From positions 339-20,892 of the forward strand of contig NZ_QRVG01000030.1 in assembly GCF_003459245.1 (NCBI RefSeq): a DNA stretch of 20,554 bases, given 5' to 3'. The notes below the pieces were generated by a model, which saw nothing but the letters and a program-made list of their open reading frames with translations, ran no database searches and was not told where the DNA came from. Positions 10,373 to 20,074 of the stretch are shown in pieces; the first letter of the stretch is position 1; the number at the start of each line of letters is the position of its first letter. The translations under genes and the position numbers were made by a program. Source of the stretch: Collinsella sp. AF23-2. GTDB taxonomy: Bacteria; Actinomycetota; Coriobacteriia; Coriobacteriales; Coriobacteriaceae.

Positions 10373-13300
10373 CTAGCGCTCGAGATGTTTGCGCATAAGC
10401 GCGAAGGCAATCAGCGAAGCGCCGACAACGGCCATAATAAAGGCGACAGCAAGGGCCTGGTCGCCCGTGTTGGCGAGCGTACCCTTAGTAGTCTTAGCAG
10501 ACTTTTTGGTTACCTTGGTCGTCGTCTGCTGACCGGGCTGGGACGGCGTCGCGGGCTGAGTCGGCTCCCCCTTGGCCTCCTCGCCCGTCACCACGTACGT
10601 CGAGAAGTGGCTCGTTCGGAAGCAGAGGTAGTCGCCCTCGGTCCACGTATCCATAGCCTGAGTGGAACCATCCTCGGCAACGTAGAGCACCTTGAGATTG
10701 GTGAGCGCCTTCATGGCAGCAGTCATCTTGACACGGACGATGAAGGACATGCCTTCGTAGTCCTCGATAACCTCGCCGTCCTTGAGAAGCTTGATATCGA
10801 GCTTATCGGCAACCTTGGTACTCCCCTGCTCAAGGCCGGAAATCGTAGCATTGGCGGCGTCGGTAAGATTTGTCGGTTCCTCGACCACAAGAGAGACGCT
10901 GTTGTTCTGGGCAATGCCGGCAGCGGCATTGTTCTCGGCGCTTACGCTAACGTCCGTTCCGTCGCTACCCGCAACGCCCGCAATGGTCCTCGCCGCCACA
11001 GTAACGGTACAGGTCGTTGTTTTGTCACCACAGGTGGCGGTGATCGTGGCGGTACCGGCCTTAAGCGGCGTCACGACGCCGTCTTTGACCGTAGCGATCG
11101 ACGAGTCGCTGGAGGCCCAGCTCACCGTCGTATCATCTGCATCGGCAGGACTCACCGTTGCGGAGAGCTTTACGGAGGCATCACCGACGGTAAAGGACAG
11201 GCTCGTCTTGTCGAGCTCGACTTTCTGGACGGGGTTGGTCACGGTCACCGAGACGGTTTGGGAGAGCGATTCTGCAGTAATGACAAATGAGCCAGAACCG
11301 GTCTTGAGGGCGGTAACGGTGTAGGAGCCATCGCCGTTGTCGACAACCTTAAACGCCTTCGAAGCGCCCGTGTTATCCAGAGCAAGCTTGGTCTCGTCGA
11401 CCTCGCCCGCAAGGGCTCCAACAAGAGAAATCTTCACGGTGCGCTCTTCGCCCTTCTTGAGGTTAAGAGCGGTCTGGTCGACCGTAAGGTTCGTTGCGGG
11501 GTTGGAAACAGTCACCGCGCAATCCTGAGAATAGGTGCTATCTTCGGTCGAAGCAGTGATGGTTGCGGCGCCCTTGGAAACAGACGTCACTTTGCCGGTT
11601 TGATCGACCGTAGCGACGCTGTCGTTACTGGACTTCCAGACAACCGTCTGGTCAGCCTCCGCGGGAACGACCGTTGCCTTAAGCTGCTCGGTTGCAGCGC
11701 CCACAAGCGTGACCTTCTGCTTATCGAGTGTGATACCCGTTGCAGGTTGAATAACCGTCACCTTGCACGTGGCGCTATACTCGCCGTCCTCAGTGGTAAC
11801 GGTGATCGTGGCAGCACCGGCCTTGACCGGGGTCACGACGCCGTCCGCAACCGTGGCGACCTCCGGGTCGCTCGAAGACCAGGACACATTCTTATTCGTT
11901 GCATTGTTGGGCTCAACCGTTGCGGTCAACGTCGAGGGCTCACCGCCCACAGCAAGCTTAAGATTCGACGCGCTGAGACTGACGCTCGAGACCCTTACTA
12001 CCGGAGTGGTTACCGTAATTGTATCCGTGGTTGCAGAGACTCCATCAACTGTTGCCGTGATCGTGGCATTACCGTCACCGACAGCGATAACAAGACCGTT
12101 GCCATCGACGGTAAGGACGCTCTCGTTAGAAGAGGACCAGACAACCTTACTGGCCTTATCGTCAGGGGAAACCTTTGCCTTCAACTGCTGAGTCGTGCCC
12201 TTGTCCATAGATGTTGAGTAACCATCCGTAATGGAGACCGTAGTTTTTGCAGGTTCCTCGCCCGGCTTGACGACGTGAACGGTCATAGTGTCGCAGAGAC
12301 GACCACCCAAGTACATTGAAACCGTTGCATCGCCGTAACTATGAGGCACTAAATACCCCAAGTAACTGCCACCATTAAACATCGGTCCTTTTACCTCGAG
12401 GACATCGGGATTATCTGAAGTGAAAGAATACTTTGCGCCGGCATAGGAGTCCATCAATTCCTCAGCGCTTTCGCTCAGCACGCCCTTTGGATATTCAAAC
12501 CCCCTGTCACATTCCAGCCAAAGCCAATCTTTGGATATACTATCTGAACTGACCTCACAGGGAAATGTATAATCGCTCGACACAAACTTAGCCTTCGAAA
12601 GGCTCACTTCCGCAGGGTCGACAACCTCTATCTCAAAGGGATGGTCATTGCCAAGGCCATCACGAGCATGAGCCTTAACGGTGCCAGGCTTTATTGCCTT
12701 AAACGAGTTTTCACCATCGGTAAGCTCAACAACATCGCTGCTTTCTAGAGAATAGGTTACAGAGCTAACGAGCGCATCCCAATGTGCACGCTGGCATGCC
12801 TTCAGTGCTTCATTTGGGGAAACGTTGAGAATGGCAGAAAGATAAGAGCTGTCCCCAACCAGCATCTTTTGTTTTTTGTTCCCACGCTCATTGAATCCAG
12901 GCTCCTGATTCTCGGTTACAACATCACATAACTTCTTCGTCTCGGTCTCGCCGTTGCAATAGTCGACAAGAACCTTGGCCTCTTTTGCATCTTTCGCCAA
13001 CGCCTCGAGTTGCAAAGAAGCGCTTAGCTCAGAAGTTCCATATGAATAATAATTCGAATTCACCCTTGCCTGAACTTTGGAATCCTTTGAGGGATCTTCC
13101 TTTATTTCAAAATATGTAGCCGCACGGGTCTCGTCCTTGGGGCGAACGTAAACTGTCCCCTCTAGCAATGCATAGTGCGTGTTCCCGCATTTTTGCGGAC
13201 AATCATCCGTGTAACCCAGCGTTGCAGTCGTTGTCGTCGCACCGGATTGGTCATAGGATACGAAACTCACCTTAATTGGATTGACATTAGCCACGCTCTT

Positions 13301-13714
13301 AATCTTAAGAGAACCGTTTAAACTCTCGTCAGCCCTGCTCTTCATGGTTATAGTCGTTGTGCCGACTTTGGTGGGACTAATTGTCAACACCCAATCACGT
13401 GATTTATAGCTCACTTTAGCGATATCCTCATCAGACGATGTGATATCGATATCACTAGGGTCAATGGGCGCCCATTCGTGATTTTTATTAAAAAAGGAAA
13501 GCCTTCCTTTCACCGTCTGTCCAACAGCGACATCAAATTCTGACCACACATCGCCTGTAGACGAATCGTATGGGAGAAACGATGCACCCATGGAACCATC
13601 CTGCGACTCCAGCATGACAGCATCCGCATGCGGGGCGGCCACCGTCAGCCCAAACGTTGCCGCCGTTAAAGCAACGCAGATGCCTGCGGCTATCCTCCAA
13701 AACCCTTTTCTCAT
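10373..13714 (-). CDS. Secreted, wall-anchored Ig-like (BIG2) repeat surface protein
   Basis: A large exported protein of 1113 residues from the ATG at 13712-13714. Its longer frame starts 45 nt upstream at a GTG; I prefer the later ATG because the protein then begins directly with a signal peptide (MRKGFWR, a hydrophobic core, cleavage near HADA). The N-terminal 450 residues contain a degenerate Ig-like unit and regions I cannot place. From about 490 to 915 there are four clear BIG2 units, each with the SSS/SSN and GxATIT patterns, and one divergent unit. A further domain and a Pro/Thr/Lys-rich linker follow. The C-terminus has LANTG (1080-1084), a hydrophobic helix and a basic tail, the layout of a sortase signal. 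Likely a surface adhesin; the ligand is unknown. Its promoter has a poly-G spacer. Confidence 0.9.
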   Translation of the reverse strand: MRKGFWRIAAGICVALTAATFGLTVAAPHADAVMLESQDGSMGASFLPYDSSTGDVWSEFDVAVGQTVKGRLSFFNKNHEWAPIDPSDIDITSSDEDIAKVSYKSRDWVLTISPTKVGTTTITMKSRADESLNGSLKIKSVANVNPIKVSFVSYDQSGATTTTATLGYTDDCPQKCGNTHYALLEGTVYVRPKDETRAATYFEIKEDPSKDSKVQARVNSNYYSYGTSELSASLQLEALAKDAKEAKVLVDYCNGETETKKLCDVVTENQEPGFNERGNKKQKMLVGDSSYLSAILNVSPNEALKACQRAHWDALVSSVTYSLESSDVVELTDGENSFKAIKPGTVKAHARDGLGNDHPFEIEVVDPAEVSLSKAKFVSSDYTFPCEVSSDSISKDWLWLECDRGFEYPKGVLSESAEELMDSYAGAKYSFTSDNPDVLEVKGPMFNGGSYLGYLVPHSYGDATVSMYLGGRLCDTMTVHVVKPGEEPAKTTVSITDGYSTSMDKGTTQQLKAKVSPDDKASKVVWSSSNESVLTVDGNGLVIAVGDGNATITATVDGVSATTDTITVTTPVVRVSSVSLSASNLKLAVGGEPSTLTATVEPNNATNKNVSWSSSDPEVATVADGVVTPVKAGAATITVTTEDGEYSATCKVTVIQPATGITLDKQKVTLVGAATEQLKATVVPAEADQTVVWKSSNDSVATVDQTGKVTSVSKGAATITASTEDSTYSQDCAVTVSNPATNLTVDQTALNLKKGEERTVKISLVGALAGEVDETKLALDNTGASKAFKVVDNGDGSYTVTALKTGSGSFVITAESLSQTVSVTVTNPVQKVELDKTSLSFTVGDASVKLSATVSPADADDTTVSWASSDSSIATVKDGVVTPLKAGTATITATCGDKTTTCTVTVAARTIAGVAGSDGTDVSVSAENNAAAGIAQNNSVSLVVEEPTNLTDAANATISGLEQGSTKVADKLDIKLLKDGEVIEDYEGMSFIVRVKMTAAMKALTNLKVLYVAEDGSTQAMDTWTEGDYLCFRTSHFSTYVVTGEEAKGEPTQPATPSQPGQQTTTKVTKKSAKTTKGTLANTGDQALAVAFIMAVVGASLIAFALMRKHLER

Positions 13715-13776
13715 TCCCCTAAGTCCAATCTCTCGTGAAAAAACGCAGCATTCTCCCACACCTTAAAATTGGCTTA

Positions 13777-13806
13777 AGGATACCCCCCCCCAACGAGCAC
13801 TTGCAA
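13777..13806 (-). promoter_or_regulatory. Predicted promoter of the Ig-repeat gene with a G9 spacer
   Basis: On the minus strand TTGCAA (13801-13806) and TATCCT (13777-13782) are separated by 18 nt, nine of which are a run of G (13783-13791). Each box matches four of six consensus positions. The transcript would begin about 55 nt before the ATG. Changing the run by one base alters the spacer length. Confidence 0.55.
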
Positions 13807-13901
13807 GCTAACGTTTGCCAGAAGGGGCAAATTAACGGCAAGCGACATTTCTGCAATATACCATCATCCGCTGAAGTGTGACTTTCCCGACGCTCCCACG
13901 C

Positions 13902-13962
13902 AAAAGCCCCGTTGATAAACGCGTTACCAACGGGGCTTGGGCTGAAAGGCCGAGCTTCAACG
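13902..13962 (-). repeat. Terminator cassette, copy B
   Basis: A near copy of 10300-10361, sharing the AAGCCCCGTTG stem and the flank containing CTTTCAG on the minus strand. The stem has one mismatch compared with copy A. It is placed after purB and should end its transcript. A further inverted repeat CTGATCG/CGATCAG lies between it and the stop (13978-14010). Confidence 0.85.
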
Positions 13963-14010: not shown

Positions 14011-15354
14011 TTAGAACTCGAGCTGCTCCAGGCGATCGAAGACTGTGTCGATGCGGGTGAGGAAGTCCCACGGGTCAAAGATCTCGTCGAGCTTCTCCTG
14101 GCTGACGGTGCAGCGCGGATCAGCCTCGAGACGCTCCTTAAAGGTGGGACCGGAGACGCAATCCTGCACCTCGTGCCAGGTAGCCATGGCGTTTTCCTGC
14201 ACGATCGCATAGGCATCTTCGCGGGTGATGCCCGTATCGACGAGGGCCAGCAGGACCTTGGAGGAGAAGATGAGACCGCGAGTCTTGTTGAGGTTGGCCA
14301 TCATGCGAGCCGGATACAGCTGCAGGCCGTCGATAACGCGAATGAGACACTGGAACATGTGGTCGAGCGCGATGAAGCTATCGGCCTGGGCGACGCGCTC
14401 GGCAGAGGAGTGCGAAATGTCGCGCTCGTGCCACAGGGCGACATTGTCGAAGGCGACCTGGGCGTTGGACTTCACGATGCGCGACAGGCCGCAGACCTTC
14501 TCCATGGTGATCGGGTTGCGCTTGTGCGGCATGGCGGAGCTGCCCTTTTGACCCTTGCGGAACGGCTCCTCGGCCTCAAGCGTATCGGTCTTCTGCAGAT
14601 TGCGAACCTCGGTAGCGATGCGCTCGCAGGTGGCCGCGGTGGTGGCAAGAACGCCGGCGAGATAGGCGTGATGGTCGCGGCTGATAACTTGCGTGGACAG
14701 CGGGTCATGAACCAGGCCCAGGTGCTCGCAGACATACTCCTCGACAAACGGCTCGATGGAGCTGTACGTGCCGACAGCACCCGAGATGGCACCGAAGGCA
14801 ACATTCTTGCGGGCGTCCTCAAGGCGATCCAGATCGCGCTTGAGTTCCCAGGCCCAAGAGCCGAACTTCATGCCGAAGGTCATCGGCTCGGCGTGGATGC
14901 CATGAGTGCGGCCGGCACAGAGCGTGTTGCGCTCCTCAAAGGCGCGACGCTTGCAAATCTCGCCGAGCTTCTTGACGTCCTCGATGATCAGGTCGCAGGC
15001 CTGGGTGAGCTGGTAGCACAGAGCCGTGTCGCCCAGATCGGAGCTGGTCATGCCATAGTGAACCCAGCGGCTGGGCTTGGGGTCGCCCTCGGGAACATCG
15101 GCGTCGATGTACTCCTTCATGTTGGTCAGGAAGGCGATGACGTCGTGGCGCGTGACCTCCTCGATCTCGTCGACCTTTGCCTTCTCAAAGTTAGCATGGT
15201 CGCGGATCCACTGGGCTTCGTCTTTAGAAATGCCGATCTTGCCGAGCTCCGCCTGGGCCTCACAGGCCAGGACCTCGATCTCCTGCCAAATGGCGTACTT
15301 GTTCTCGAGGGAGAAGATGTGTCCCATCTCCGGGCGGGTATAGCGATCGATCAT
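14011..15354 (-). CDS. purB: Adenylosuccinate lyase
   Basis: PurB catalyses two eliminations in purine synthesis: SAICAR to AICAR plus fumarate, and adenylosuccinate to AMP plus fumarate. The 447-residue protein shows the superfamily signature GSSAMPHKRNPI with the mobile-loop serine, the AGRTHGIHAEP segment with the catalytic histidine, and the MTSSDLGDTA nucleotide segment. The longest frame starts 66 nt upstream, but AAGGAG is five nt before the ATG at 15352-15354. A possible -10 box TACAAT sits at 15399-15404. Nothing else is in this transcript; the repeat-rich stretch upstream is non-coding. Confidence 0.97.
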   Translation of the reverse strand: MIDRYTRPEMGHIFSLENKYAIWQEIEVLACEAQAELGKIGISKDEAQWIRDHANFEKAKVDEIEEVTRHDVIAFLTNMKEYIDADVPEGDPKPSRWVHYGMTSSDLGDTALCYQLTQACDLIIEDVKKLGEICKRRAFEERNTLCAGRTHGIHAEPMTFGMKFGSWAWELKRDLDRLEDARKNVAFGAISGAVGTYSSIEPFVEEYVCEHLGLVHDPLSTQVISRDHHAYLAGVLATTAATCERIATEVRNLQKTDTLEAEEPFRKGQKGSSAMPHKRNPITMEKVCGLSRIVKSNAQVAFDNVALWHERDISHSSAERVAQADSFIALDHMFQCLIRVIDGLQLYPARMMANLNKTRGLIFSSKVLLALVDTGITREDAYAIVQENAMATWHEVQDCVSGPTFKERLEADPRCTVSQEKLDEIFDPWDFLTRIDTVFDRLEQLEF

Positions 15355-19966: not shown

Positions 19967-20074
19967 ATGGCGACTCGATTTATCGGGGGCATGATCGCCG
20001 AGGGCCTGCCGGAGATAGCGGGCGCGGTACCCGCTGCGGGGGGGGGAGCGTCGTGGAGGTGGACACAGCGCTAG
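19967..20074 (+). CDS. Mini-ORF 1
   Basis: A 35-residue frame (MATRFIGGMIAEGLPEIAG...) with a good GAGGAGGAG ribosome site seven nt before the ATG. It contains a run of nine G at 20038-20046; one extra G would fuse it to mini-ORF 2. It overlaps mini-ORF 2 by 22 nt. No function can be assigned. Confidence 0.4.
   Translation: MATRFIGGMIAEGLPEIAGAVPAAGGGASWRWTQR

Follow-up and report, generated by a model that had tools for sequence, protein, structure and literature searches.

The window, a stretch of 20,554 nucleotides from Collinsella sp. AF23-2, carries a run of nine G upstream of a gene for a large surface protein, and the question raised by this locus is whether the run belongs to the promoter of this gene and tunes its output by slippage. 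We estimate at about two in three the probability that the G9 run is the spacer of a predicted promoter, in which slippage of the porA type would grade expression of the adhesin-like wall protein; this reading relies on sequence comparison.

Surface protein gene and its upstream region

The features of the locus are listed below.

10373..13714, minus strand: surface protein of 1113 aa with a signal peptide, a variable N-terminal part (to about residue 500), a conserved Big_2 stalk, and LANTG followed by a membrane segment and a charged tail (Pfam; both ends by eye)
13715..13776, minus strand: leader, with a TAA (13765-13763) in the frame of the gene (sequence and ortholog alignment)
13777..13782, minus strand: predicted -10 hexamer TATCCT, unchanged in the ortholog (window reading and ortholog comparison)
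13783..13791, minus strand: run of nine G in the predicted promoter spacer (C9 on the plus strand), read directly as GGGGGGGGG; nine G also in the ortholog from genome G035
13800-13792, minus strand: non-G part of the spacer, nine bases, GTGCTCGTT (direct reading)
13801..13806, minus strand: predicted -35 hexamer TTGCAA, TTGTCA in the ortholog (window reading and ortholog comparison)
13855..13882, minus strand: rival promoter-like pair GTCACA-16-TATATT with TG before the -10 (generic scanner), not found in the ortholog
13904..13938, no strand assigned: hairpin AAGCCCCGTTG...CAACGGGGCTT between purB and the surface protein gene (by eye)
14011..15354, minus strand: purB (adenylosuccinate lyase), the upstream neighbor on the same strand (Pfam Lyase_1 and ADSL_C)

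The gene downstream of the G run encodes a surface structure, and its preliminary description as a wall-anchored Ig-repeat gene was borne out by the signal peptide, four Big_2 stretches (Pfam, E 2e-48), and the C-terminus ...TLANTGDQALAVAFIMAVVGASLIAFALMRKHLER, in which LANTG is followed by a membrane segment and the basic tail KHLER. We take this C-terminus to be a sortase signal. Relatives of the protein are numerous: 64 proteins in the database reached E <= 1e-30, and one cluster, 92% identical to it, represents 3342 sequences. Translation likely starts at ATG 13714. An in-frame GTG is also present at 13759, but the leader of the ortholog deviates by one T between these two positions; therefore, the ATG was taken as the start and the GTG was disfavored. 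The gene thus lies downstream of the run as had been described, but at a slightly greater distance than the "55 nt or so" given earlier, since the ATG is 62 nt past the -10 hexamer.

The hairpin upstream of the predicted promoter is probably the terminator of purB, whose start was taken from a home-made gene caller; a terminator scan considering only loops of 3-8 bases reported none between purB and the surface protein gene. A second G9 run was observed near the right end of the window (20038-20046, plus strand), where plausible reading frames switch at the run and the region has an integrase-like gene.

On the minus strand, the predicted elements follow in the order TTGCAA, N9, G9, TATCCT, with 18 nt between the hexamers, so that the position of nine G between these two boxes at this spacing had been described exactly and with the right coordinates. 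The homopolymer is located entirely between the predicted -35 and -10 elements, at near-optimal spacing, both in the window and in the ortholog. By itself the run is only mildly unusual within 20 kb: G8 words averaged 0.86 in 100 dinucleotide shuffles of the window, and the observed number of four was reached by 3 of the 100. The hexamers are weak, each matching the consensus at 4 of 6 positions; a best pair of at least 8/12 was present in 104 of the 148 upstream regions examined; and the generic promoter scanner picked GTCACA-16-TATATT (9/12, with TG before the -10) over the run-containing pair. The promoter call therefore rests on comparison. The 190 upstream regions used gave too few strong pairs to show which spacer length promoters of the genus prefer.

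Comparison with the ortholog

A search with the window DNA against 43 genomes of the genus gave matches in 41, of which 40 matched only by the end of purB or by short pieces; the region before the surface protein gene was matched in G035 only. The protein search of the genome contigs returned 10 loci, and a single one, L031, carried a full-length relative (64% identity, residues 1-1113 matched). It appears to be the same contig as the match in G035.

The upstream region of the ortholog reads TTGTCA-N9-G9-TATCCT, with run length and spacing equal to those of the window. Identity between the two sequences amounted to 43 of 46 columns for the -10 hexamer with 40 leader columns, 19 of 24 for the -35 hexamer with N9 and the run, and 79 of 105 for the columns upstream of the -35. 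Conservation in these alignments is therefore clear from the -10 onward, while the -35 and the non-G part of the spacer are little above their surroundings. The run-containing pair was the sole pair common to both upstream regions at a score of at least 8/12, with A2 and T6 required in the -10 and a spacer of 15-20 nt.

The proteins themselves have diverged unevenly. Between the window protein (10373-13714) and that of L031 (4001-7378), residues 1-500 are 24-43% identical in 100-residue blocks, and residues 501-1113 are 87-99% identical. The protein is thus a mosaic, which suggests exchange of the head domain. Selection by host or phage would be expected to give a surface protein of this kind, in which the head varies and the stalk and anchor are conserved.

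G runs across the genus

G9 words were present in all 43 genomes of the genus. The census, covering every run of at least nine G in the six genomes with complete lists (G001-G006), gave 60 runs, compared with 0.24 expected if the ratio of runs of five to runs of six is extrapolated and about 10 if the 6-to-7 ratio is used. In 376 kb of fetched sequence, G/C runs of 5, 6, 7, and 8 numbered 385, 24, 5, and 6, runs of eight being slightly commoner than runs of seven. Position was classified in the same 376 kb for 59 runs, i.e., those of the six genomes minus one in L043. Of these, 21 fell within the first 190 bases of a coding sequence, a class with 14% of bases, and 10 within 150 bases upstream of a start (6.5%), so that these 5'-end classes together held 31 of the 59 runs in 20.6% of bases; 5 were further inside genes, and 23 were in the rest of the intergenic sequence. 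The gene caller was home-made, and by eye some of the "intergenic" runs, e.g., in L098 and L121, look like frame-shifted 5' coding ends. All 26 runs placed inside genes by the caller had G on the coding strand. Numbers of G9 words in G031 (566), G032 (989), G033 (270), and G007 (90) were far above those of the other genomes, and the long G stretches in G031, G032, G033 (and G007) may be assembly artefacts.

Run lengths differed between genomes in several gene families. The MKANSE family (FctA in Pfam, L099) was matched in 20 of 43 genomes. Nine of its alleles had a run of at least eight: seven with G9 were open as far as fetched, and one with G8 and one with G10 ended at 68 and 64 residues, respectively; the remainder comprised seven alleles lacking a run of this length, three in which no start was found, and one piece that was too short. 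For the MANYSPQ family (CAP in Pfam, L138), six G9 alleles were open and two G10 alleles, from loci whose DNA is 98% identical to the query, ended at 61 residues; one further G9 allele (G024) was broken beyond the run, and no start was matched in four pieces. A run upstream of a signal peptidase gene (L106, Pfam peptidase S26; the SipW label was assigned in this analysis) measured 9, 9, 10, 11, 9, and 9 in the six matching genomes of the 43. The gene at L117 received no Pfam assignment.

The pilin-like genes (L095, L121, L127, L134, L136, L140, L141, and L048) have ATGCATG before the G run, that is, overlapping ATGs four bases apart in different frames. Three of four G9 alleles were open from the first ATG and all five G10 alleles from the second; therefore, either run length yields a pilin with a slightly different N-terminus. 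One G9 allele had neither pilin frame. For L134, Pfam reported DUF6273 and, below the cut-off, Flp_Fap.

Runs were also observed at genes of other functions. In BREX brxA loci, the run was just before or in the 5' end of the gene, with G9 in L103, L115, and L235 and G10 in L096, at 32 nt before the MRIVA start in the three of four loci where this distance was measured. L103 was assigned to BrxA by both Pfam and PADLOC, and the family search was made for this locus only. The run at brxA could possibly confer phase-variable phage defence. Genes resembling DNA cytosine methyltransferases by eye (L231, L246, and L264) had G9, G13, and G10, respectively, at seemingly the same place. A G run was found a short way upstream of sugar transferases of the exopolysaccharide type (L143, bacterial sugar transferase in Pfam; L094, by eye), and a LoaP/NusG-like gene of the exopolysaccharide type (L114, by eye) begins at a G run adjoining masked bases. 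In a secreted C69-dipeptidase-like gene (by eye), the run in the signal peptide region was G9 in L261 (G042), G10 in L262 (G036), and G9 in L051 (G029), so that its length differs in two closely similar loci.

As to runs of the promoter type, a promoter of like build was TTGACT-N9-Gn-TACGCT in G036 and G042. It precedes the gene of a secreted 1088-residue protein in the same layout as in the window, and the run was G9 in G036 and G8 in G042, giving spacers of 18 and 17 nt in a locus 99% identical over 301 bases. Runs inside pairs of at least 8/12 before secreted-protein genes were found in L057, L061, L111 (SpaA in Pfam), and L225, and TTGACA-20-TAAACT and TTGACG-19-TATACT are examples among the further promoter-like runs. 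L057, L061, and L225 came from loci chosen with promoter-shaped patterns; of the six candidates from the six-genome census only L111 qualified, and its run was G10 in both genomes carrying it. A full counterpart of the L225 promoter was not found in the other 42 genomes.

Eight G followed directly by TANNNT (GGGGGGGGTANNNT) matched 23 times, against 19 for the reversed control, in the 43 genomes, which is no genus-wide signal. A looser pattern of -35, run, and -10 matched 15 times against 5; however, 5 of the 15 came from a single orthologous coding site present in three genomes, two of which contributed it twice, and several spacings were not promoter-like. When promoters were scored around runs, 6 of 15 candidate runs reached 8/12 compared with 53 of 980 control points. 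Since there were five control points per region, not independent of one another, and the six comprised the window and its ortholog and three picked by pattern, no p-value was drawn.

Taken together, these data make it probable that Collinsella has a broad repertoire of poly-G phase variation (a "phasome"). It would comprise promoter rheostats like that of the window, frame switches in Flp-like pilins (two overlapping starts serving G9 and G10) and in sortase-type surface proteins, and runs upstream or at the 5' end of genes for an exopolysaccharide sugar transferase, a SipW-type signal peptidase, and BREX brxA, and would shuffle surface and phage-defence states within a population.

Proposed mechanism, alternatives, and known systems

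In the proposed mechanism, the G9 run would serve as the spacer of a sigma-70-type promoter of the gene for the wall-anchored Ig-repeat protein, and replication would add or remove a G. A change of run length would alter both the distance and the turn between the -35 and -10 elements, the spacer being 17 nt for G8, 18 nt for G9, and 19 nt for G10. The altered spacing would change the strength of transcription, so that protein levels in the population would be graded and reversible. By analogy with porA and from sigma-70 spacing rules, G8 is predicted to be the strongest, G9 intermediate, and G10 weaker. We infer that this predicted promoter is active and that this run slips. The arrangement rises above chance because it is conserved in the ortholog and because G runs in the genus are in excess and placed toward 5' ends.

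Run-length changes could instead act on translation, as an ON/OFF switch in which the run is part of a translated leader fused to the gene. Many other G runs of the genus are indeed located in coding 5' ends, and because of a leader with T5 where that of the window has T6, an uninterrupted frame leads from a TTG next to the run into the gene of the G035 ortholog. In the window, however, the TAA at 13765-13763 stands in the frame of the gene between the run and the ATG, the run is not in an open frame continuing into the gene, and a change in its length therefore cannot shift the gene's frame. Frame switching was thus ruled out by sequence for the window allele, and with leader frames that are unlike in the two alleles, we regard a translational switch at this locus as very improbable. 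A role in the promoter explains both alleles more simply, since -10, spacing, and run are the same in the window and G035.

Transcription could also start from the upstream extended -10 promoter GTCACA-16-TATATT, which would place the G run in the 5' leader, where, if active, it would affect RNA structure, stability, or translation. This pair is the top-scoring one of the window's upstream region, one point better than the pair around the run. It was not found in the ortholog, which does have the run-containing pair, the spacing, and the leader, and such an origin of the transcript appears unlikely. We consider slightly less likely still that the run is a slippery stretch of no regulatory effect, retained in two relatives by descent or chance. 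The comparison of only two alleles, the similar runs away from gene starts (other intergenic sequence and deeper parts of genes), and the near-equality of the G8-TANNNT count and its control would agree with this; on the other hand, runs of at least nine G are in excess with a 5' placement, and run and spacing persisted despite divergence of the protein over its first 500 residues. The spacer reading has its own weak points as well: the hexamers are weak and another upstream pair outscores them, only the sequence from the -10 onward stands out in the alignment, GGGGGGGGTANNNT is hardly above its control across the genus, three of the four further promoter cases stem from loci found with promoter-shaped patterns, the only qualifying census run is invariant in its two carrier genomes, and run-length differences in assemblies may be sequencing or assembly errors. 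Overall, the promoter phase variation proposed in the preliminary description held as to the hexamers, spacing, run, wall protein gene, and conservation in a diverged ortholog; slippage and graded expression are predicted for this locus, whose two alleles are both G9. Its standing is helped by the exclusion of the translational route in the window and by comparable runs of the genus that differ in length, one of them in a promoter of like build (17 versus 18 nt).

Species of Collinsella are common in the human gut. If the promoter is a slippage rheostat, individual cells of a strain would differ in their display of the protein, and switch state may confound comparisons of strains or cultures. 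The idea could also be examined in existing reads at the many other G-run loci, among them a phage-defence operon that may be phase-variable. Poly-G switching in Collinsella was not found in the open-access literature, among the matches listed, as judged by title and start of abstract, which is consistent with the earlier statement that it had not been described in Collinsella-like bacteria.

The comparison with porA drawn at the outset is apt, as slippage in a poly-G spacer is established for this gene of Neisseria meningitidis; in the available part of the source, 11G gave high surface expression, 10G 2-fold reduced, and 9G 13-fold reduced expression (PMC3639595). Both loci have a poly-G tract in the promoter spacer of a surface protein gene, and the output of porA is graded rather than ON/OFF (PMC3639595, same part). 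Unlike porA, the window comes from a Gram-positive gut commensal and encodes a wall-anchored Ig-repeat protein instead of a porin, and its promoter is predicted from sequence, with G9 in both alleles. Bifidobacterium, a second point of comparison, represents another class of the phylum than Collinsella. Bifidobacterium breve UCC2003 resembles the present case as an actinobacterial gut commensal with G runs at sortase-type surface structures: according to the portion of the study available to us, intragenic G runs switch its sortase-dependent pili, and runs in promoter spacers are mentioned (PMC9187656). The switches demonstrated there are intragenic, whereas that of the window would be of the promoter type. 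In Gardnerella, about 70% of G/C runs of at least eight are within 300 bp upstream of genes, the associated proteins commonly have LPXTG, InlB-repeat, or Rib features, and one run was 9 or 10 bases long among colonies (PMC11287997, in the part available); genus and genes differ from those of the window. Further parallels are the coding G-run families of Collinsella itself (MKANSE, MANYSPQ, and Flp-like pilins), which share the genus, the kind of run, and the surface location of their products and differ in run length between genomes. Unlike the window gene, whose run is outside its frame, they would switch by reading frame. The kind of mechanism proposed for the window is thus already known from Neisseria and noted in Bifidobacterium, and the repertoire of Collinsella is the more interesting result.
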